A stretch of 49,708 bases of DNA from Campylobacterales bacterium (GTDB lineage Bacteria; Campylobacterota; Campylobacteria; Campylobacterales; Sulfurimonadaceae), in contig JAFGUB010000004.1 of NCBI GenBank assembly GCA_016938735.1, forward strand, positions 1 to 49,708, written 5' to 3'. Shown here piece after piece: positions 7,071 to 17,655 of this stretch (positions are counted from its first letter, which is position 1; the number at the start of each line of letters is the position of its first letter). Both the position numbers and the translations under genes were made by a program. The notes under the pieces are model-generated. The model was given only the letters and a program-made list of their open reading frames with translations, did not search any database and was not told the origin of the DNA.

Positions 7071-7688
7071 ATGGCACTTGGATGGCTTTATGCGGAGATG
7101 GTTTTACTGTTTGTAGCGCCGAGTCTATCGGTCTATTTTGGGGTGATGCCGCCGTGGATGATCATACCGGGGCTTTGGGTGTTGACGCTCTATGCGTATT
7201 GGATTTTACGCCGTCACCAAATGCCTGTTTTTGAGCCGCTCCGCCACTATTGTCGTCATCTTTTGGGGCGAACCGCTTTGCTTGGGGTGCTGGGGCTTGC
7301 GATGTTGGTCTTTATCGGGTATTCAAAACTTTTTGTGCTGGTGCTTGAGCGGCCCTTGGTTTGGGTGGCGATCCTAGCACTCTATCCCCTGCTCTCGGCC
7401 CTGCCGCAAGAGATTTTGTTTCGGCGTTTTTTCTTCTATCGCTATAGTGCGCTGATGGGCAGCGGAGCACTTTTTTGGCTTAGTGCGGCGCTCTTTGCGC
7501 TCGCGCATCTGCCCTTTGGCAACGAAGTGGCGCTTGCGGGGAGTTTTGCGGGCGGGATACTCTTTGCCCACTCTTACCGTCAAAGCGGTACGATCCTCTC
7601 AAGCTGGATCGAACACTCTCTCTATGGCATTATGATCTTTACCTTTGGCTTGGGACACTATTTTTATCATGGACGCATCGGGGCTTAG
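7071..7688 (+). CDS. CPBP-family intramembrane protease-like protein
   Basis: This 205-residue, strongly hydrophobic protein has about six membrane segments. It shows the CPBP (Abi) signatures PQEILFRRF (112-120, the ExxxR motif with Glu114 and Arg118), FALAHL with His146, and a late HSLYG. The first Glu of the usual EExxxR is Gln113, so activity is uncertain. Family members are glutamic endopeptidases that cleave membrane substrates, but many are uncharacterised. The ATG is preceded by AAAAGGAG. A palindrome variant (7023) lies in its leader. It converges with, and overlaps by four bases, the Amt-GGDEF gene. Confidence 0.75.
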   Translation: MALGWLYAEMVLLFVAPSLSVYFGVMPPWMIIPGLWVLTLYAYWILRRHQMPVFEPLRHYCRHLLGRTALLGVLGLAMLVFIGYSKLFVLVLERPLVWVAILALYPLLSALPQEILFRRFFFYRYSALMGSGALFWLSAALFALAHLPFGNEVALAGSFAGGILFAHSYRQSGTILSSWIEHSLYGIMIFTFGLGHYFYHGRIGA

Positions 7689-9463
7689 TAGCTACAGACC
7701 CGATTGCGCCCCAGGGTCTTGGCCTGATAGAGCGCACTGTCAGCTTGTTTGAAGAGCTGCTCAAAGGTGACGTTTGGATTTTTGGGGCTGCTTACGCCAA
7801 AGGAGCAGGTGACCGTGCCGACCGTTTCGATGGCTAGGGCGGCGATCCGCAGGCGCAGCTTTTCGGCGAGCGCTTCGCAATCGGCGATGCGGGTGCCGGA
7901 GGCGACGATCAGAAACTCTTCTCCGCCCCAGCGTGCGAGCAGATCGCTTTGGCGGATATGTTCTTTGAGCGTATCGGACACAAGACGCAGCACGCGGTCG
8001 CCCATGTCGTGGCCGAAGGCGTCGTTGATCTTTTTGAAGTGGTCGATGTCGATGACGATCAGCGAGTAGCCGCTGTTGAAGGGGTTTTTGCCCGTGACAC
8101 GCTCAAGCAGTCCGCGGCGGTTGAGCAGCGCTGTGAGGGTGTCGCTGTGGGCTTGGGTGGCGAGTTGCTCTTGCTTGAAGCGCAGCATCTCGAGTAGATG
8201 GTTGACAAAACGCGCGACGATGCCGATCTCGGTGTCGCGCTCGGTGCGCAACTTGAGGCGCATATTGCCCGTGCGCATGATCTTGACGATCCCTTCGATG
8301 GTGTCGACCCACGGCATACGGGCGTGGTGCTCCGATACGTTGAGCCCCAACACTTCATGGCGGGGCGGCACCCGCAGGACATTCGCCATACGCAGCAACC
8401 TAAAGAGCGCTAGACCGCACAAAAAGGCAAAGCCAAAGGCCGTAACGATCCCCGTAAGCTGCACCAGCATGAATGAAAGCCGATCCATCCCCGCCGGAAG
8501 GGCGCCAAAGAGCGCCACGGCAAAGGTGCCCCACGCCCCCGCCGCTCCGTGAATCCCCACCACGCTCAGCGGATCGTCGATATGCCATCGCCGCAGCAGC
8601 CATCGGTCGCTATAAAACATCACCCCTACCGACACCAGCCCCACCAGTGCCGATGAGGGCGCATCCATCGAGGCGCAACCGGCCGTGATGCCCACCAACC
8701 CCGAGAGGATGCCGAAGCTAAAGATCTCCACCCCCACGCGCTCTTTGTAAAAAAGGCTCAGCAGATAACCGCCAAAACCCCCAAACGCCCCTGCAAGCGT
8801 GGTGTTGAGCAAGATGGAGGTAATTTTGGCGTCAAAGGCGAGCAGGCTGCCGGCATTGAACCCAAACCACGCAAACCAGAGTATGAAGATTCCAAAGACG
8901 ATGAAGTTGTGGTTGTTGGGCGAGAAGATGACAATGGAGCCTTTACGAAAGCGCCCCAGCCTCGGCCCGAGTGCTATCGCTCCGGCAAGACCGATCCACG
9001 CGCCCACGGAGTGTACCACCGTCGAGCCTGCGAAGTCCACAAAGCCAAGTTCTTTTAGCCACCCCTGCTCGCTCCATGCCCACTGCCCAAAGAGGGGGTA
9101 GATGAGCGCCGTGACCACCACAGCGACCAGAACGTAGCCGCTAAACTTCATCCGCTCCGCCACCGCACCCGAGACGATGGTGGCCGCCGTTGCCGCAAAC
9201 ATCGCCTGAAAGAAGAAGAGGGCGTTTTGGGTCAGATCACCGCCGTCGATCATATAGCCTGCCGCGCCGAACATCAGCCCAAAGCCAACCAGCCAGAAGG
9301 CGATGATGCCGACGATGGTGTCGATAAGGTTTTTCATGGCCACGTTGATGGTATTTTTGGGGCGCACGGTGCCGCTTTCGACCAGCGCGAAGCCCAGTTG
9401 CATCAAAAAGACCAAAAAGGCGCACAAGACGATCCAGAGGATGTCAAGGGGTGCGAGGCTCAC
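7685..9463 (-). CDS. Ammonium transporter (Amt) fused to a GGDEF diguanylate cyclase
   Basis: Residues 1 to about 360 form an Amt channel with 11 or so membrane segments and the twin pore histidines His151 (STVVHSVGAW) and His305 (VVGIHGAAGAWG). A HAMP-like linker (about 385-435) leads to a GGDEF domain with an active-type signature GGEEF (513-517). A product-inhibition I-site RQSD (504-507) stands exactly five residues before it. The layout implies that ammonium binding or transport modulates c-di-GMP synthesis; this is inference by analogy with Amt-histidine kinase fusions. It starts at GTG with AAGGAG just upstream. No perfect palindrome occurs in this 1.8-kb gene. Confidence 0.93.
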   Translation of the reverse strand: MSLAPLDILWIVLCAFLVFLMQLGFALVESGTVRPKNTINVAMKNLIDTIVGIIAFWLVGFGLMFGAAGYMIDGGDLTQNALFFFQAMFAATAATIVSGAVAERMKFSGYVLVAVVVTALIYPLFGQWAWSEQGWLKELGFVDFAGSTVVHSVGAWIGLAGAIALGPRLGRFRKGSIVIFSPNNHNFIVFGIFILWFAWFGFNAGSLLAFDAKITSILLNTTLAGAFGGFGGYLLSLFYKERVGVEIFSFGILSGLVGITAGCASMDAPSSALVGLVSVGVMFYSDRWLLRRWHIDDPLSVVGIHGAAGAWGTFAVALFGALPAGMDRLSFMLVQLTGIVTAFGFAFLCGLALFRLLRMANVLRVPPRHEVLGLNVSEHHARMPWVDTIEGIVKIMRTGNMRLKLRTERDTEIGIVARFVNHLLEMLRFKQEQLATQAHSDTLTALLNRRGLLERVTGKNPFNSGYSLIVIDIDHFKKINDAFGHDMGDRVLRLVSDTLKEHIRQSDLLARWGGEEFLIVASGTRIADCEALAEKLRLRIAALAIETVGTVTCSFGVSSPKNPNVTFEQLFKQADSALYQAKTLGRNRVCSY

Positions 9464-9579
9464 GGAACTCCTTCGGGCGAAATAGAGTATTATAGGTTAT
9501 TTTATAATCTTATGGCTGATTATATTTTATCCACTTTGTACGCTTCGTTGATTGTGCTTCAAATGGGACGCGCTTGGAT

Positions 9580-9585
9580 TATAAT
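9580..9585 (+). promoter_or_regulatory. -10 box for the REC-PAS-HD-GYP signalling operon
   Basis: TATAAT, in the context ATTATAATAG, stands about 60 bases before the ATG at 9646. The presumed leader contains two ACATGT words (9605 and 9615), the second within the palindrome variant ATACATGTAA (9613-9622). No convincing -35 is visible. Confidence 0.5.
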
Positions 9586-9645: not shown

Positions 9646-11025
9646 ATGCCAAAAAAAATTCTGGTCGTTGATGACGTGGTTGAAAATATCCAACTCGTCT
9701 CTAGTATCCTCAAAAAATCAGGTTACAGTATTCTTGTAGCCAAAAACGGCAAAAAAGCACTGGAGATCGTGGCGCAACAGAGCGTCGATCTGATCTTGCT
9801 CGATATCGTCATGCCTGAAATGGACGGCTTCGAGGTGGCCCGCAGGCTCAAAAGCACGCCTGAATATCGAGACATACCGATCGTTTTTCTCACCTCCCAC
9901 GCCGACGCCTCAAGTGTGAGCGAAGGGTTTGCGGTCGGGGCGCAGGACTACGTCTCCAAGCCCTTCAATGCCAGCGAACTCAAAGCGCGGGTTGCGACGC
10001 ATCTGGAGCTCTCCGATTCGCGCAAAGAGCTCAAGCGCAATCTGGATTTAAATATTTCGCTGCTCGATCAGTATAAAACGGTTGTCGATGAGAGCACCAT
10101 CGTCTCCAAAACCGACCCGCACGGCATCATCACCTATGTCAACGACGCCTTTGTGCGCATCTCAGGCTACAGCCGCGAAGAGCTGTTGGGCCATCCGCAC
10201 AGCATCGTGCGCCATAGCGATATGCCCAAGAGTGCCTTTAAGGAGATGTGGGAGACGATCCGCGCTAAAAAAACATGGAAAGGAGAGGTCAAAAACCGCA
10301 AAAAAGATGGCGGCTACTACATTGTGCAAAGCACCATCAGCCCCATTTTAGGAGCCGACGGAGCCATCGAGGAGTACATCAGCGCCCGCAACGACGTCAC
10401 CGAGATCTATGATCTACAAAAAGAGATCGAAGAGACCCAAAAAGAGGTTGTCTTTACGATGGGCTCCATCGGTGAAACCCGCAGTAAGGAGACCGGCAAC
10501 CACGTCAAACGGGTGGCCGAATATTCACGCATTCTCGCTACCCACTGCGGTCTCGATGCGCAATCGGTGGAGCTGCTGGTGCAGGCCTCGCCCATGCATG
10601 ACATCGGCAAGGTCGGCATTCCCGATAACATCTTGCAAAAGCCCGGCAAGCTCGATGATGATGAATATGCCGTTATGCGTACCCACGCAGAGCTGGGCCA
10701 CTCCATGCTCGCCCACTCCAAGCGGCCGCTGCTGCAGATGGCGGCAACCGTGGCCCATGAGCACCATGAGTGGTGGGACGGCACGGGCTATCCGCGCTAC
10801 CTCAAAGGCGAAGAGATCTCCATCTATGGCCGCATTACTGCCCTTGCCGATGTGTTTGATGCGCTGGGCAGCGACCGCTGCTACAAAAAAGCGTGGAGCG
10901 ATGAACGGATTTTCGAGCTGCTGCGCGCACAGCGCGGCATGCAGTTCGATCCGCAGTTGATCGATCTCTTTTTTGAACATCTTGATGCCTTTTTGGCCGT
11001 ACGGGAGCGTTTTCGTGATCTCTAA
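9646..11025 (+). CDS. Response regulator with PAS and HD-GYP domains
   Basis: The 459-residue protein has a receiver domain (about 1-120, phospho-acceptor Asp53 in LLDIVMPEMDG, Lys in SKPF), a PAS domain (about 145-260, redox/aerotaxis-like with GYSREELLGHPHSIVRH) and an HD-GYP phosphodiesterase domain (His318-Asp319 in HDIGKVG, then HHEWWDGTGYP). It probably lowers c-di-GMP when phosphorylated. An in-frame ATG lies at 9607, but 9646 has GGAAGGAG at the right distance and starts MPKKILVVDD, the normal receiver start. The stop overlaps the start of the next gene by 11 bases, so this is the first gene of a signalling operon. Confidence 0.92.
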   Translation: MPKKILVVDDVVENIQLVSSILKKSGYSILVAKNGKKALEIVAQQSVDLILLDIVMPEMDGFEVARRLKSTPEYRDIPIVFLTSHADASSVSEGFAVGAQDYVSKPFNASELKARVATHLELSDSRKELKRNLDLNISLLDQYKTVVDESTIVSKTDPHGIITYVNDAFVRISGYSREELLGHPHSIVRHSDMPKSAFKEMWETIRAKKTWKGEVKNRKKDGGYYIVQSTISPILGADGAIEEYISARNDVTEIYDLQKEIEETQKEVVFTMGSIGETRSKETGNHVKRVAEYSRILATHCGLDAQSVELLVQASPMHDIGKVGIPDNILQKPGKLDDDEYAVMRTHAELGHSMLAHSKRPLLQMAATVAHEHHEWWDGTGYPRYLKGEEISIYGRITALADVFDALGSDRCYKKAWSDERIFELLRAQRGMQFDPQLIDLFFEHLDAFLAVRERFRDL

Positions 11026-12160
11026 ACCCCTAAATGAGACCTACAGACCGACTATTTTGATCATAGACGATGATGCTCATATCATCACCCTCATCACCGA
11101 CGTGCTCAAACACGACTACACCCTCAAAGCCCTCACCGATGCCACAAAGGTGATGGCGTTTGTAGAGCGCCATCCGCGTATCGATCTGATTTTACTCGAT
11201 GTGATGATGCCCCAAATTGACGGCTATGCGCTTTGCAAGCAGCTCAAAGAGTCGCCTCAAGCTACGGCGATTCCGATCATCTTTTTAACCGCGCTCGAGA
11301 GTGACGAAGAGATTGTCAAAGGGCTGCGCCTCGGTGCCGTCGATTACATCACTAAACCCTTTAACATTGAAGTACTCAAAGCCAGAGTCCAGACCCATCT
11401 GCAACTCAAACGCTTTAGCGACTCACTGCTGGAGATCATCGAGGAGAAAGAGGAGCTGCTGATCAAACAATCCAAGATGGCGACGCTGGGTGAGATGTTT
11501 GAGAATATCGCCCACCAGTGGAAACAGCCGCTCTCCATCATTTCGATGGCCTGCAACGATATGGAGGTGGATCATGCGCTGGGCACCTTTAGCGCTGAGG
11601 AGGCGATGCACCAAATCGAGGTGATCCGCCGCGCGCTCGCCCAGCAGGTGACGGCCATCGATACCTTTAGAGACTTTATCAAATACACGCACAAGCCGAC
11701 CCGCTTTGCTCTGGCGGCTTTGATTGAGGAGTGCCGCATCTTTATCAGCTCCAAACTCAACGCGCAGCAGATTGCCTTTGATGCGGCCATTCCTTCCGAG
11801 CTCTATCTGCACGCCGATCGCAGCGCGCTGCTGCAGATTCTGCTCAACCTCTTTAGCAACAGCATCGATGCCCTGCATCGGCGAACTGAACACAGATGGA
11901 TGCACGTTACATGTAAGCAAGAGCAGCAGACGCTGCGCATCGCGCTCTGTGACAACGGCGGGGGCATTCACGAGCCCCATGCGCAAAAGGTCTTTGAGAA
12001 ATACTACACCACCAAAGGCGATTCCGAGGGGAGCGGTCTAGGGCTTTACATGTCGCGTGAAATCGTGATCAAAAAGCTCCATGGCAGCCTCGATTTTCAC
12101 AACACCGATGAGGGCGTCTGTTTCGTGCTCACCCTGCCCAATCACGCACAGGAGCTCTAA
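11015..12160 (+). CDS. Response regulator-histidine kinase hybrid (REC-HisKA-HATPase)
   Basis: The 381-residue protein begins with a receiver domain (Asp62 in LILLDVMMPQIDG, TKPF), followed by a coiled linker and a kinase core. Phospho-acceptor His167 lies in NIAHQWKQPLSI, the N-box is LLNLFSNSIDAL, and the ATP lid is DNGGGI and GSGLGLYMSREI. The AHQWKQPL form of the H-box belongs to the kinase subfamily common in Campylobacterota and other sulfur bacteria. The start is taken as GTG at 11015, preceded by GGGAG. It has no membrane segment, so it is a cytoplasmic relay, probably linked to the flanking genes. One perfect palindrome (11907) reads VTCK in a loop of the ATPase domain. Confidence 0.9.
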   Translation: MISKPLNETYRPTILIIDDDAHIITLITDVLKHDYTLKALTDATKVMAFVERHPRIDLILLDVMMPQIDGYALCKQLKESPQATAIPIIFLTALESDEEIVKGLRLGAVDYITKPFNIEVLKARVQTHLQLKRFSDSLLEIIEEKEELLIKQSKMATLGEMFENIAHQWKQPLSIISMACNDMEVDHALGTFSAEEAMHQIEVIRRALAQQVTAIDTFRDFIKYTHKPTRFALAALIEECRIFISSKLNAQQIAFDAAIPSELYLHADRSALLQILLNLFSNSIDALHRRTEHRWMHVTCKQEQQTLRIALCDNGGGIHEPHAQKVFEKYYTTKGDSEGSGLGLYMSREIVIKKLHGSLDFHNTDEGVCFVLTLPNHAQEL

Positions 12161-12161
12161 G

Positions 12162-15100
12162 ATGGCACTCAAACTCGACTCAGAGCACTTCAAAGCACTG
12201 CTCAACACGACCCAAGACGGTTACTGGGCCGTTAGCCCCGAGGGGATCATCCTCGATGTCAACGAAGCCTACTGCGAGATGAGCGGTTACGCTCAAGTGG
12301 AGATCATCGGCGAGAGTCTGCTGAAGTTTGATATCCACTACGACCCCTCCATGACGGCTGCGCAGATTGAACATTTGAAGCAGAGCGGACGGGGGCGCTT
12401 TGAATCGACCCACCGGCGTAAAGACGGCACCCTTTTTGAGGTGGAGGTCTCGGTCAGTTACGCGCCGATAGAGGGGGGAATACTGTTTTCACTGCTGCGC
12501 GACGTCACGGAGCGACACCGCCAAGCCCAAGCGCTTTTGCAAGAGCGGATGCTGCTTGAGACCATCATCAACACCATTCCCTCTGCACTCTTTTGGAAAA
12601 ACCGCGACGGCGTTTTTGAGGGGGTGAACCGTCGATTTATCGCCGATTCAGGCTTGGCAGAGGCGGCGCAGATTGTGGGCAAAAGCGATTTCGATATGCC
12701 CTGGCATGCGCATGCCCCAAGCTACCGCGACGATGATCTGCGTATCATGCAGACGCAAGAGGCGAAACTGGGCTACATCGAAGCCTTTGGTGCTTCAGGT
12801 GGGAGCGAACGTGTCATACGCACCTCAAAAGTGCCGCTGCGCAACCTTCAAGGCGAGGTGATCGGGGTGCTGGGTATCTTTGATGACATCAGTGCCGAGC
12901 ACCGTGCGACCGAAGCGCTCAAAGTAGCCAAAGAGGAGTTTGAGGCCATCTTCAAAACCTCCAAAGAGGGGATCGCCATCATGAATCTTGAGAGTCGCTT
13001 TCTCGACTTCAACCCTGCCTATGAAGCCCTGACCGGCTACAGCCGCGCGGAGCTTTTGGAACGATCGTGCGTAGGCATGAGCACACCGGAGGATAGAGCG
13101 GCCACACAAGCCGCATTGGCGCAGGCGATCCAGGAGGGTTTTGTACAAAACCTGCAGAAATCCTGCATACGCAAAGAGGGCAGTGTTATTTTTGTAAGCC
13201 TCAATCTTTCACTCCTGCCCGACAAAAAACGCCTACTGATGAGCGTACGCGACATTACCGAACAAAAGCAGCACGAAGCGAGGCTCGAGCAGCTCAATCA
13301 GGAGCTCGAAGTGCGCGTCGAGGAGCGCACCGAAGAGTTGAGTCTGCAAAAAGAGGCCTTCGAGCGGCTCTTTGAGTACTCATCACAAGGGACGCTGATC
13401 ATTCAAAACGGCCGCTACATTCAGTGCAACGCCAAAGTACTTGAGATGATTGGCGTACCCGATAAGAGCCACATTATCGGTAAAACCCCCAGCGAAACCT
13501 CCCCCACCATCCAAAACGACGGCAAGCGCTCAACCGAAAAAGAGACAGAGCTGATCAATGAGGCCAAAGCTAAAGGCTTCGCCCGCTTTGAGTGGGCCCA
13601 TACGCGCCCCGATGGCACCACCTTTCCTTGTGAAGTGACGCTGGTGCCGATCTATCTGCCCTCCAGAGGGGAGATTATGCATGTCACGTGGCGCGATCTC
13701 AGCGAAGAGAAGCGCAAAGAGCAGCTGCTTGAAGAGTCGAGAGAGTATCTCAACAATATCATGGAGAGCGCGATTGACGGTATCGTGGCGATTGATGCGG
13801 CGGGGATGATACAGACCTTCAACAAAGCCGCAGAGGCACTCTTTGGCTTTAGCCGCGAGGAGGTGATCGGGCGCAACGTCTCCCTGCTGATGCCCGAACC
13901 GCACCAAAGCCGCCATGACGGCTACATTAGCGCCTATCTACGCAGCGGCGTGGCCAAAGCGATCGGCCACACCCTAGAGCTCGAGGCGCAGCGCAAAGAC
14001 GGCACGCGCTTTCCCATCTCCTTGCGCGTCGGGGAGATCAAGACCCCTACGCACCACAGTTTTACCGCCTTGCTGCAAGACATTTCGCAGCGCAAAGCGG
14101 TAGAGGCGGCGATGCTGCTGGCCCGTCAGGAGGCAGAGCAGGCAGCTAAAACTAAAGCGGACTTTTTGGCCAATATGAGCCATGAGATCCGCACCCCGCT
14201 CAACGCGATCATCGGCATGAGCTTTTTGGTGATGCAAACGGAGCTTGACGAGAAGCAGTATCTCTACATCAAAAAAATTGACAGTGCGGCGAACCATCTG
14301 CTCGGTGTCATCAACGATATTTTGGACTACTCCAAACTCGAATCGGGCAAGATGGTGCTTGATCACAGCGATTTTGACTTCAATGCCATCTTGGACAACA
14401 TCTCTAATATGTTCAGTTTCAAGGTCCAAGAGAAGGAGATTGAGCTGCTTTATGATATCGACAGCACCATGCCCTACAAGCTCAAAGGCGATGCACTACG
14501 CCTTTCGCAAGTGCTCATCAATCTGGTCAGCAACGCAGTGAAGTTTACCAATGCCGGTACCATCGTGCTGCGCTCAAGACTGCGCGCACGCGAGGGCAAC
14601 AAAGCGCGTATCAGCTTTAGCGTCAAAGATACCGGTATCGGTATGACCGCAGAGCAGGCGGCGCGGCTGTTTCACTCCTTTTCGCAAGTCGATACCTCTG
14701 CCACGAGGCGATATGAGGGAACGGGGCTTGGACTCGTCATTTCACAGCATCTGGTTCATGCGATGCAGGGCACCATCAGCGCCCGGAGCGTCTATGGTAG
14801 CGGCAGCACCTTTAGTTTTGAAGTCGAGCTTGAGCTTCAAGAAGAGCAGCCGCCGCTGGGCAGCAGAACCTTTACACCGATGCGCGTGCTGATAGTCGAT
14901 GACAACCCCATCGCCCTTGAGGTGATTGCCAAAGTCACCTCCTCTTTTCATTATGAGACCCATCAGGTAATGAGCGGCGAACAGGCCATCAGCAAAATGC
15001 GCGACGCACTGACGCGCAATACCCCTTACGATCTGCTCATCATCGATTACAAAATGCCCGGAATCGACGGCCTTGAAACCATTAAGCAGATGGAGGTTCC

Positions 15101-16334
15101 CCAAAACTGCAAGATCGTGATGGTCACTTCAACCGATATGAATGTGCTCAAAGAGCGCGCAGAGGGACTATCGATCGACGCTTTTTTGAGTAAGCCGCTC
15201 ACCCCTTCAAGCCTCTATGACGCCATCGTCGCCCTCCAAAGCCGCAATCGCATGAACACTCTTGAGAGGGTGCGCTCCAATACTTACGTTACCCTTGCCC
15301 AAAAGATTGCGGGAGCCCATCTGCTGGTGGTGGAGGACAACAAACAAAATCAGGAGATCGCCGCCGCCTTTTTGGAAAAAGGGGGCGTGAGCTTCGATTT
15401 TGCCAACAACGGCGAAGAGGCGGTCATGATGGCCCAAAAAAATGTTTATGACGGCGTCTTGATGGATGTACAGATGCCCGTGATGGACGGCTTTGAAGCC
15501 ACACGCCGACTGCGCGGCATTGAGGCTACCTCCACACTGCCCATCATCGCCATGACCGCCAACGCTTTGCATGGGGACCGCCAGCGCTGTCTCAATGCGG
15601 GAATGAACGATTATGTCAGCAAACCGATCGACATCAATAAACTTTTTGAGGTATTGGCATTGCAAATCGTGCCCAAAATCCATAAAGACCTTCAAGAAGC
15701 CATCCCTGAAACCGCAGATGATGCTGCGGTGTTAGGCTGTTTGGAGCTAGACATTAAAAATGCGCTCAGTCGCATGGGCGGGAGCGTTTCACTCTTTGTG
15801 ACGCAAGCACGGCGATTTGCCCGCAGCCATCACGGTTTTACGCAGGAGATTGAAGCGCTTTGCGCAGGGGCAGATACCGAAGCTTTGGTGCGCTTTGTCC
15901 ACTCGCTCAAAGGTACAAGCGGCAGTATCGGGGCAACGCCGCTGTTTGTACAAGCGAAGGAGCTTGAACAGCACCTCAAAGAGAGCGGACTAAGCAAAGA
16001 GAATCTGCAGTCGCTCAAGCAGCTCTCATCCCTGGTGGCTCAAGTAGTCAACAATATTGAAGAGTGTCTTGAACGCTCAGAAACAGCCACGCAACAGGGT
16101 TCGCTCTATACGCCGCAGGAGCTGCGCACAATGCTGTGCGCCCTTAAAGTGCAACTACAGGATTTTGACGCGCAAGCGGTTGATTCGCTCAAAATGAGCG
16201 CCGCAACCCTCTCTGATATGGGCTATGAGGTAGCCTATACGGCACTTTTGGCGCAGGTAGAGGAGTTTAATTTTGATGAAGCGCTGGAACTGCTTGAGCC
16301 CCTTTTACAACAGCTTGAATGTGTTTGCGGCTAA
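12162..16334 (+). CDS. Soluble five-PAS hybrid histidine kinase with two receivers and an Hpt domain
   Basis: The 1390-residue multi-sensor has PAS domains at about 10-120, 128-250, 262-380, 405-520 and 525-650. Then come HisKA (phospho-acceptor His674 in NMSHEIRTPLN), HATPase (NLVSNAVKFT, DTGIGM, GTGLGL), receiver 1 (Asp962, IIDYKMPGIDG), receiver 2 (Asp1102, LMDVQMPVMDG) and a C-terminal Hpt domain (His1247 in FVHSLKGTSG). PAS5 resembles the FixL heme PAS: LMPEPHQSRHDGY with His585. There are no membrane segments. The ATG at 12162 follows AGGAG and directly abuts the previous stop. It is the largest signalling protein here and lacks the palindrome entirely. The input is unknown; oxygen or redox is plausible beside hydrogenase and nif genes, but unproven. 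Confidence 0.92.
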   Translation: MALKLDSEHFKALLNTTQDGYWAVSPEGIILDVNEAYCEMSGYAQVEIIGESLLKFDIHYDPSMTAAQIEHLKQSGRGRFESTHRRKDGTLFEVEVSVSYAPIEGGILFSLLRDVTERHRQAQALLQERMLLETIINTIPSALFWKNRDGVFEGVNRRFIADSGLAEAAQIVGKSDFDMPWHAHAPSYRDDDLRIMQTQEAKLGYIEAFGASGGSERVIRTSKVPLRNLQGEVIGVLGIFDDISAEHRATEALKVAKEEFEAIFKTSKEGIAIMNLESRFLDFNPAYEALTGYSRAELLERSCVGMSTPEDRAATQAALAQAIQEGFVQNLQKSCIRKEGSVIFVSLNLSLLPDKKRLLMSVRDITEQKQHEARLEQLNQELEVRVEERTEELSLQKEAFERLFEYSSQGTLIIQNGRYIQCNAKVLEMIGVPDKSHIIGKTPSETSPTIQNDGKRSTEKETELINEAKAKGFARFEWAHTRPDGTTFPCEVTLVPIYLPSRGEIMHVTWRDLSEEKRKEQLLEESREYLNNIMESAIDGIVAIDAAGMIQTFNKAAEALFGFSREEVIGRNVSLLMPEPHQSRHDGYISAYLRSGVAKAIGHTLELEAQRKDGTRFPISLRVGEIKTPTHHSFTALLQDISQRKAVEAAMLLARQEAEQAAKTKADFLANMSHEIRTPLNAIIGMSFLVMQTELDEKQYLYIKKIDSAANHLLGVINDILDYSKLESGKMVLDHSDFDFNAILDNISNMFSFKVQEKEIELLYDIDSTMPYKLKGDALRLSQVLINLVSNAVKFTNAGTIVLRSRLRAREGNKARISFSVKDTGIGMTAEQAARLFHSFSQVDTSATRRYEGTGLGLVISQHLVHAMQGTISARSVYGSGSTFSFEVELELQEEQPPLGSRTFTPMRVLIVDDNPIALEVIAKVTSSFHYETHQVMSGEQAISKMRDALTRNTPYDLLIIDYKMPGIDGLETIKQMEVPQNCKIVMVTSTDMNVLKERAEGLSIDAFLSKPLTPSSLYDAIVALQSRNRMNTLERVRSNTYVTLAQKIAGAHLLVVEDNKQNQEIAAAFLEKGGVSFDFANNGEEAVMMAQKNVYDGVLMDVQMPVMDGFEATRRLRGIEATSTLPIIAMTANALHGDRQRCLNAGMNDYVSKPIDINKLFEVLALQIVPKIHKDLQEAIPETADDAAVLGCLELDIKNALSRMGGSVSLFVTQARRFARSHHGFTQEIEALCAGADTEALVRFVHSLKGTSGSIGATPLFVQAKELEQHLKESGLSKENLQSLKQLSSLVAQVVNNIEECLERSETATQQGSLYTPQELRTMLCALKVQLQDFDAQAVDSLKMSAATLSDMGYEVAYTALLAQVEEFNFDEALELLEPLLQQLECVCG

Positions 16335-16363
16335 GGGCGAAGCTATCATTGAAGGAGGAAGAG

Positions 16364-16780
16364 ATGATTGAACTGATTTATGTCAGTAGTGCTACAAAAA
16401 CGATGAGTGAAGCGGAACTGCTTGGAATTTTGGAGGTGAGCCGTATCCGTAATCAAGAGGACGGCATCACGGGAATGCTGCTTTATGCCGGGGGGAACTT
16501 TTTTCAGGTGCTTGAAGGGGAACACTCAGCGGTCATGGCAACCTACAACCGCATCCTCAGAGATCCGCGCCACAAAGACTGCATGGTGCTCACCAAAAAT
16601 GAGATCGCGCAACGCTCCTTTCCCGAGTGGTCGATGGGATTTAAATACCTCGGCGCATCAGGAGAGGAGCTCGAAGGATTTAGCGAATTTTTCAACCGCT
16701 CGATGAAACCCGAAGAGATTGCCCAAAAACCGAGTGTCGTGATCGACCTGCTTTACATGTTCAAACGGCGTAATACCTGA
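16364..16780 (+). CDS. BLUF-domain blue-light photoreceptor
   Basis: This stand-alone BLUF protein has 138 residues. It matches the spacing of the AppA BLUF site exactly: Tyr6, Asn30, Gln48, Trp89 and Met91 correspond to AppA Tyr21, Asn45, Gln63, Trp104 and Met106. Further family motifs are GITGMLLY and FFQVLEG. BLUF domains bind FAD and switch hydrogen bonding in blue light; short ones act through partner proteins. The ATG at 16364 has GAAGGAGG upstream and stands 29 bases after the hybrid kinase gene, so it is probably co-transcribed with the kinase and HD-GYP genes. Its partner could be one of these (inference). Confidence 0.92.
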   Translation: MIELIYVSSATKTMSEAELLGILEVSRIRNQEDGITGMLLYAGGNFFQVLEGEHSAVMATYNRILRDPRHKDCMVLTKNEIAQRSFPEWSMGFKYLGASGEELEGFSEFFNRSMKPEEIAQKPSVVIDLLYMFKRRNT

Positions 16781-16836
16781 GTATCCTGCCTCTCTCTAAG
16801 CCGGCAAAAAAACTGTATGAAGATCGTGAGAACCTA

Positions 16837-17655
16837 ATGCTTACATGTAAGCGATATCTCTTGAAGATATTTCTCTTGCTCTGCTTTCTGGCCCCGGCAT
16901 ACTTAGGTGCCTGGGCGGAGCATGAGGGGGTGCGCTCCCTTTTTGAGCGTGCAGAGCTAAACGCCACCTTTGTGCTGCTGGATGCACAGACACGCACGCT
17001 GCAAGGCTACAACCGTGAGCGTGCCGACACGCGCTTTAGCCCCGCATCGACGTTTAAGATTGCCAATGCACTGATCGGCCTCTCTAGCGGCGCCGTGAAA
17101 AGTGTGGATGAGGTGCTGCCCTATACGGGGCCAAAAGAGCCTTTTATCGCGGCGTGGGCGGAGGATATGGCGCTGCGCAAAGCGATGGGGCTCTCCAACG
17201 TGCCGATTTTTCAGGAGCTTGCGCGGCGGATCGGGCATCGGCGTATGGCGCAGGGCGTAGTGGCTTTGGGCTATGGCAACGCCCGAATCGGCGCGGCGAT
17301 CGATCGCTTTTGGCTTGACGGGCCGCTTGAGATCAGCGCGGTCGAGCAGAGTCTCTTTTTGTCCGCGCTCGCACAAGGCGATCTCAACTGCTCCCAAGCG
17401 GCGCAAAGTGCGGTGCGAGACATCATGCTACTGGAGCAGACACCCAAAGCCAAGCTCTACGGCAAAACAGGGTGGCAAAACGCCCCCTACAGCGGGGTCG
17501 GCTGGTGGGTCGGATGGGTAGAGCGAGAGGGCCGCATCTACGCTTTTGCACTCAATCTGCAGATCAACAGCCCTGAGGATGCTCAACAACGGGTAGTGCT
17601 GGGTAAAAAAGCGCTGGAGCTGTTGGGCGTTTGGGAGGAGACTTTGGCGCGCTGA
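16837..17655 (+). CDS. Class D (OXA-type) beta-lactamase
   Basis: This is a secreted serine beta-lactamase-family protein of 272 residues with an N-terminal signal peptide (hydrophobic 8-26). Class D motifs are all present: Ser71-Thr-Phe-Lys74, Ser120-Asn-Val122, Tyr146-Gly-Asn148, Trp159 and Lys210-Thr-Gly212. Lys74 is the residue carbamylated in this family. It is a chromosomal gene in ordinary local sequence, with no integron or IS next to it, so it is likely intrinsic rather than recently acquired. A perfect palindrome (16841) occupies codons 2-5 (LTCK), immediately after the start codon. It follows the BLUF gene by 56 bases. The hydrolysis spectrum cannot be judged. Confidence 0.92.
   Translation: MLTCKRYLLKIFLLLCFLAPAYLGAWAEHEGVRSLFERAELNATFVLLDAQTRTLQGYNRERADTRFSPASTFKIANALIGLSSGAVKSVDEVLPYTGPKEPFIAAWAEDMALRKAMGLSNVPIFQELARRIGHRRMAQGVVALGYGNARIGAAIDRFWLDGPLEISAVEQSLFLSALAQGDLNCSQAAQSAVRDIMLLEQTPKAKLYGKTGWQNAPYSGVGWWVGWVEREGRIYAFALNLQINSPEDAQQRVVLGKKALELLGVWEETLAR

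Follow-up and report, generated by a model that had tools for sequence, protein, structure and literature searches.

Does a short blue-light sensor act on the kinases and the c-di-GMP phosphodiesterase with which it is encoded? The question is raised by a locus in the window (i.e. the whole stretch of 49,708 nt that was analyzed, in which hydrogenase genes are also present), where four tightly packed signalling genes, g1 to g4, lie on the same strand and fill positions 9646-16780 (Table 1). The last of them encodes the proposed light input.

Table 1. Position and content of the four signalling genes and of the features flanking them.
Feature	Position	Strand	Description
Amt-GGDEF fusion gene	7685..9463	-	ammonium transporter + diguanylate cyclase; divergent from g1
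Promoter-like site (10 of 12)	9558..9585	+	5′ of g1; weak, sites of this kind at chance density
g1	9646..11025	+	459 aa; REC-PAS-HD-GYP c-di-GMP phosphodiesterase response regulator; ATG at 9646
g2	11015..12160	+	381 aa; kinase, REC-HisKA-HATPase_c (receiver at the N-terminus); probable GTG start
g3	12162..16334	+	1390 aa; five PAS, HisKA, HATPase_c, REC, REC, Hpt
g4	16364..16780	+	138 aa; BLUF protein of the short type, helices at the C-terminus; candidate light input
Class D beta-lactamase gene	16837..17655	+	56 bp 3′ of g4

The sequence-only reading had the four genes overlapping or nearly touching, and this was borne out: g1 and g2 overlap by 11 bp, and gaps of 1 bp and 29 bp separate g2 from g3 and g3 from g4. 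For g2, the GTG at 11015 (preceded by GGGAG) was the most plausible start; GGAGG lies ahead of g4. No promoter-like site was found between g3 and g4, and no plus-strand terminator-like site in 16334-16837. From the packing of the genes we infer transcription as one unit; the assignment rests on packing because promoter-like and terminator-like sites occurred at about chance density and were also found inside g1, g2, and g3. The beta-lactamase gene (NF012161, 267 bits; cut-off 250) follows g4 on the same strand, with no terminator-like site found between the two. On the other side of the locus, the Amt-GGDEF gene next to g1 may represent an ammonium-sensing producer of c-di-GMP beside an enzyme that breaks it down.

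Pfam searches assigned Response_reg, PAS, and HD_5 domains to g1, whose phospho-acceptor motif (LILLD) and HD-GYP motifs (HDIGK at 318; HHEWWDGTGYP at 373, following the pattern HHExxDGxGYP) are intact. In g2, Response_reg and HATPase_c were accompanied by a weak HisKA match (19.8 bits, below the cut-off of 26.9); besides LILLD and DNGGG, the protein has an H-box (HQWKQP) that is clear despite the sub-cut-off match. The domains of g3 comprised five PAS stretches, HisKA, HATPase_c, two Response_reg, and Hpt, and its catalytic motifs HEIRTP, DTGIG, GTGLGL, two REC Asp motifs, and HSLKG. No hydrophobic segment of g3 was strong enough for a membrane helix (maximum Kyte-Doolittle value 1.29). At Pfam level, no EAL domain was detected in g1-g3, the output domain being HD-GYP, and no HNOB heme sensor in g1-g4 (E 0.001). 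A LOV domain among the PAS domains of g1-g3 was considered as the light sensor and rejected, since these proteins contained neither an NCR motif nor a match to the LOV pattern taken from the literature (PMC4844311).

The Pfam BLUF match of g4 reached 115 bits (curated cut-off 25; E = 1.7 × 10−33). Its residues Y6, N30, Q48, W89, and M91 have the same spacing as Y21, N45, Q63, W104, and M106 of AppA, which form its flavin site; the exact spacing asserted from the sequence alone thus held. In an alignment of 31 BLUF sequences (26 of the 32 places in two families and 5 from named genomes; L041, L050, L057, L058, L071, and L078 were left out), Y6 was invariant and the other four residues were at least 90% conserved, with His instead of Q48 in two rows. 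The AlphaFold model of g4 had moderate confidence (mean pLDDT 75.8, with blocks of 50-65 from residue 91 onward) and matched TePixD (E = 2.7 × 10−12) and the BLUF domain of AppA (rmsd 1.3 over 97 columns); Tll0078/TePixD was also nearest among solved sequences (2.4 × 10−20). The Pfam match and the fold match of the model rule out a chance open reading frame, and g4 is apparently a functional BLUF protein.

By its gene content, the source organism would be a Campylobacterota relative of Sulfurimonas. Within the source family, 20 of 228 genomes had BLUF matches (24 places); for a second family of the order, the count was 8 of 104 genomes (8 places). A phylum sample overlapping both families gave matches in 9 of 397 genomes, one of the nine with a sub-cut-off match only. 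The source genome has a second BLUF gene (contig C41, L037 9478-9903) near outer-membrane efflux and AcrB-type genes (Pfam), and in the single congener searched the counterpart (L038 8885-9331) is flanked by genes that agree in size and order. These two proteins are 38% and 41% identical to g4 over 92 residues. The source genome also yielded one match to the photolyase/cryptochrome family (PF03441, 2.2 × 10−70). Such genes occurred in 83 of the 228 family genomes, i.e. in 15 of 20 with BLUF and 68 of 208 others (Fisher p = 3.5 × 10−4, a value that ignores kinship and in which incomplete genomes may hide genes on either side). The premise that the organism is presumably dark-living is weakened by this gene, by the second BLUF, and by the family-wide enrichment; because the photolyase/cryptochrome-family gene is present and is enriched in BLUF genomes, the lineage is probably not strictly dark-living.

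Other BLUF surroundings were diverse. In two genomes, a photolyase/cryptochrome-family gene is found close to BLUF, at distances of about 2.4 and 3 kb (G079:C2 176513-179608 and G083:C12 173988-177683). A PAS-PAS-GGDEF-EAL protein (L041 6275-8722) carries BLUF at its C-terminus, a domain order that seems unusual, and Aquimarina has three tandem BLUF-like genes (L027 9983-11439). A contig scan gave four loci, three of them with a BLUF gene and no g1-g3 matches near it; the fourth (L026) had no listed open reading frame. In a plasmid collection, 252 records had BLUF matches, the best among the 40 listed being 50% identical over 94 residues; in the one plasmid neighborhood inspected (H1), the match fell in a gene with a PsiE-family annotation, and none of the genes annotated in the 12.3 kb was a kinase.

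A search of the 228 family genomes with g2, in which the best 8 candidates per genome were scored and some matches may have been missed, returned at least 12 other strong matches (302 bits or more; the next scored 235 bits), one of them a paralogue in the source genome (G000-C8). The surroundings of 15 matches were retrieved, covering 11 of the 12 strong ones, the partial matches G159 and G176, and the weaker G008 and G218; the twelfth strong match lies in G198 (L040). A matching hybrid-kinase core adjoined the REC-HK in 11 of 12 places (G134, G000-C8, G063, G084, G114, G046, G068, G164, G088, G017, and G198), and in G112 a PAS-bearing neighbor is cut by the contig end. Both HD-GYP motifs occurred in one gene of the module in eight (G134, G000-C8, G063, G084, G114, G046, G088, and G198); the pair was not flagged in G068, G017, G164, or G112, the last two lying at contig ends. 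By this recurrence, g1-g3 belong to a recurrent module. Its periphery varies: (i) the sensory region of the hybrid kinase comprises five PAS domains in g3, SBP_bac_3 plus PAS in G198, G134, and G084, and SBP_bac_3 in G000-C8; (ii) a REC gene of about 500 aa is common to G198, G000-C8, G134, G063, G046, G068, and G088, its PilZ-like end, tested in two of them, scoring below the Pfam cut-off in G198 and going unreported in G134; (iii) beyond that gene, G134 has a Cache-EAL gene (Pfam), and G063 and G046 have genes of similar size flagged solely by a loose EAL pattern; and (iv) in the weaker places G008 and G218, REC-GGDEF-flagged genes stand in place of HD-GYP.

Among the source locus and the 12 copies, BLUF was part of the module in the source locus and G198 only. 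In G198, from another genus, the four gene types all lie on one strand in a single run, in the order REC-PilZ-like, HK, REC-HK, REC-HD-GYP, hybrid kinase, BLUF, and the BLUF gene follows the hybrid kinase directly (18 bp). Identities between the two loci are 57% for BLUF, 43% for REC-HK, 49% and 43% for the REC and HD-GYP parts of g1, and 54% for the kinase core. In the other family, G616 has an SBP-PAS-HK-REC-Hpt kinase, a REC-HK, and then BLUF, with the likely BLUF ATG one base past the REC-HK stop. No BLUF was seen in the stretches read of the other 11 strong copies; nine of their genomes had no BLUF match at all (including G114, G112, and G164, whose copies are cut by contig ends), and G088 and the source genome carry BLUF elsewhere. 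An enrichment of BLUF anywhere in module genomes was not convincing (3 of 12, Fisher p = 0.076). By these patterns, BLUF is an optional last gene of the module.

Adjacency to kinases was assessed across both families. Setting aside four fusions (three confirmed by Pfam, G043 by likeness to G010), three contig-edge places (G121, G151, and G628), and one unread place (G507) left 24 of the 32 BLUF places. A kinase, recognized by a crude motif check, lay directly upstream on the same strand in three, with 0.56 expected from 66 HATPase_c matches (some maybe not kinases), an assumed 2854 genes, and one gene per kb. The chance of three or more is 0.017, a modest statistic that ignores kinship. In L049, L054, and L059, g2- or g3-like genes adjoin BLUF or are close to it and run in the opposite direction.

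The history of the linkage is mixed. The BLUF tree placed g4 in a clade of five (support 94/94) with the BLUFs of G198, G092, G159, and G151, so that separation of BLUF from the module in relatives, which the sequence-only reading had named as a refutation, applies to part of the clade: (i) g4 and the G198 BLUF are module-linked; (ii) the G092 BLUF, sister to that of G198 (95/87) and 74% identical to it, stands alone in a genome with no close REC-HK match (best 146 bits); (iii) the G159 BLUF follows a Cache-HAMP-SpoIIE gene; and (iv) the G151 BLUF lies at a contig edge, its N-terminus not in frame. In G159, a different contig carries a partial match to REC-HK (52% identity, 217 bits), and this genome may thus hold the module apart from its BLUF. 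At L045 (9223-11652), a gene for a Cache-HAMP-SpoIIE phosphatase precedes BLUF in the same orientation, at a distance of 175-190 bp. The modules of the source locus and G198 were not recovered as sisters by the REC-HK tree, which contained a very long outgroup branch, or by the kinase-core tree. Either BLUF joined the module twice or an ancestral linkage was lost; these trees do not decide between the two.

We favor, at roughly even confidence, the reading in which BLUF is an accessory, detachable, trans-acting blue-light sensor for a pre-existing, c-di-GMP-controlling phosphorelay. That light acts on the kinases, and through them on c-di-GMP, is here inferred from gene order. For this reading we count the unbroken same-strand set of four gene types found in two genera, with BLUF right behind the hybrid kinase in both; the kinase-adjacent BLUF in another family; the three kinase-adjacent BLUF places where 0.56 would be expected; further c-di-GMP links of the module, i.e. 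the EAL gene of G134 and the PilZ-like-ended REC gene in G198, the own-genome paralogue, and five others; and the precedents discussed below. Against it we count the 11 module copies without BLUF, the unlinked relative in G092, the trees that do not pair the two modules, a BLUF C-terminus that is alike in linked and unlinked copies, a BLUF frequency that is not significantly raised in module genomes, and the modest size of the adjacency statistic.

Part of this evidence would also suit a co-transcribed passenger, i.e. a genuine photoreceptor that merely shares the expression of the phosphorelay and has its partner encoded elsewhere. The unlinked relatives in G092 and G159 and the 21 of 24 readable unfused places without a same-strand kinase directly upstream point that way, as does the C-terminal sequence, which is conserved across the g4 clade regardless of linkage and is therefore not tuned to the kinase/HD-GYP module alone. 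A passenger would not be expected to come directly behind the hybrid kinase in each of two genera, or next to kinases again in another family, and we consider this account rather unlikely.

If BLUF acts as a detachable sensor of the relay, g4 would bind FAD, and blue light would switch the Tyr-Gln hydrogen bonding. Its C-terminal helices could then contact the core or a receiver domain of the hybrid kinase, altering autophosphorylation or phosphate flow. Phosphate would pass from the g3 His via REC and Hpt to the g1 receiver, g2 serving as a second kinase, and the phosphorylation state of g1 would set its HD-GYP activity and the local level of c-di-GMP, whose hydrolysis is the sole recognized output in the operon. 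The five PAS domains of g3 may provide a chemical (redox or metabolic) input, on which BLUF would act as a light veto or gain; light could either raise or lower c-di-GMP.

The principle has precedents. In HnoX-HnoK-HnoB of Shewanella and in NosP-NahK-NarR, a stand-alone sensor is encoded with a histidine kinase and a REC-linked c-di-GMP enzyme (PMC8846402), and working like these systems is the best reading of g1-g4 by analogy. The locus is not a member of either, because its sensor is neither HNOB nor FIST: theirs is a heme or FIST nitric-oxide sensor with EAL output, whereas here BLUF is combined with HD-GYP and with a pair of kinases, of which g3 is a PAS5 hybrid carrying Hpt. PixD of Synechocystis, which with TePixD/Tll0078 is among the nearest solved BLUF relatives of g4, binds the response regulator PixE (PMC9090330), although this regulator is of the PATAN type, acts on pili, and has no HD-GYP output. 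For BlsA, an effect on several partners has been reported, among them the response regulator BfmR (PMC8508746). BlrP1, BldP, and BluF likewise tie blue light to c-di-GMP enzymes, but as BLUF-EAL fusions, which occur in the source family as well (L042 and L043); g4 is unfused. On the output side, g1 and its module counterparts resemble RpfG-type REC-HD-GYP response regulators, except for the PAS between REC and HD-GYP in g1.

A precedent for a short BLUF and c-di-GMP suggests a more direct route. PapB of Rhodopseudomonas palustris is proposed to act in trans on c-di-GMP hydrolysis by the EAL protein PapA, apparently via its C-terminal helices (PMC8846402). By the same token, g4 could bind g1, which is within the operon, and control the phosphodiesterase without the kinases. 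PapA, though, is a solo EAL protein, with no kinases described for the pair in the passages of that review treating it. In all three linked places BLUF adjoins the kinase gene and not the HD-GYP gene, and the 13.4-kb contig of G616 yielded no flagged pair of HD-GYP motifs, making direct gating of g1 improbable. Least probable is a sensor of cellular redox state: flavin midpoint potentials of LOV and BLUF proteins near that of the cell (PMC4844311) and the hydrogenase genes in the window would fit, but g4 keeps its photocycle residues and BLUF genomes are enriched for the photolyase/cryptochrome-family gene.

Of the claim that this would be a new circuit, the combination would be new, whereas its parts are known and its principle has the precedents above. 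A 2014 survey gives 64% of BLUF proteins as short and 34% as EAL-linked, with partners of short BLUFs known for few cases only, and about half of bacterial LOV proteins as histidine kinases (PMC4844311); a 2022 review reports no HD-GYP protein with BLUF (PMC8846402). In searches of the open-licence literature, none of the titles and abstract openings listed (for one query, those of 20 of 473 hits) named a BLUF with a hybrid kinase or in an HD-GYP operon. A trans-acting BLUF connected to a hybrid-kinase relay that ends in HD-GYP would fill this gap.

Such a circuit would also point to candidate partners for short BLUFs and would allow control by light to be tested directly in bacteria that carry hydrogenases. 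More tentatively than for the locus itself, we suggest that Hpt-type hybrid-kinase phosphorelays with c-di-GMP output may use a detachable BLUF as a plug-in light sensor, and may have gained it on two or more occasions (the source-locus/G198 type and the G616 type). If so, H2- or sulfur-using bacteria at lit chemical interfaces would add light to a redox relay in deciding whether to leave or stay in biofilms.
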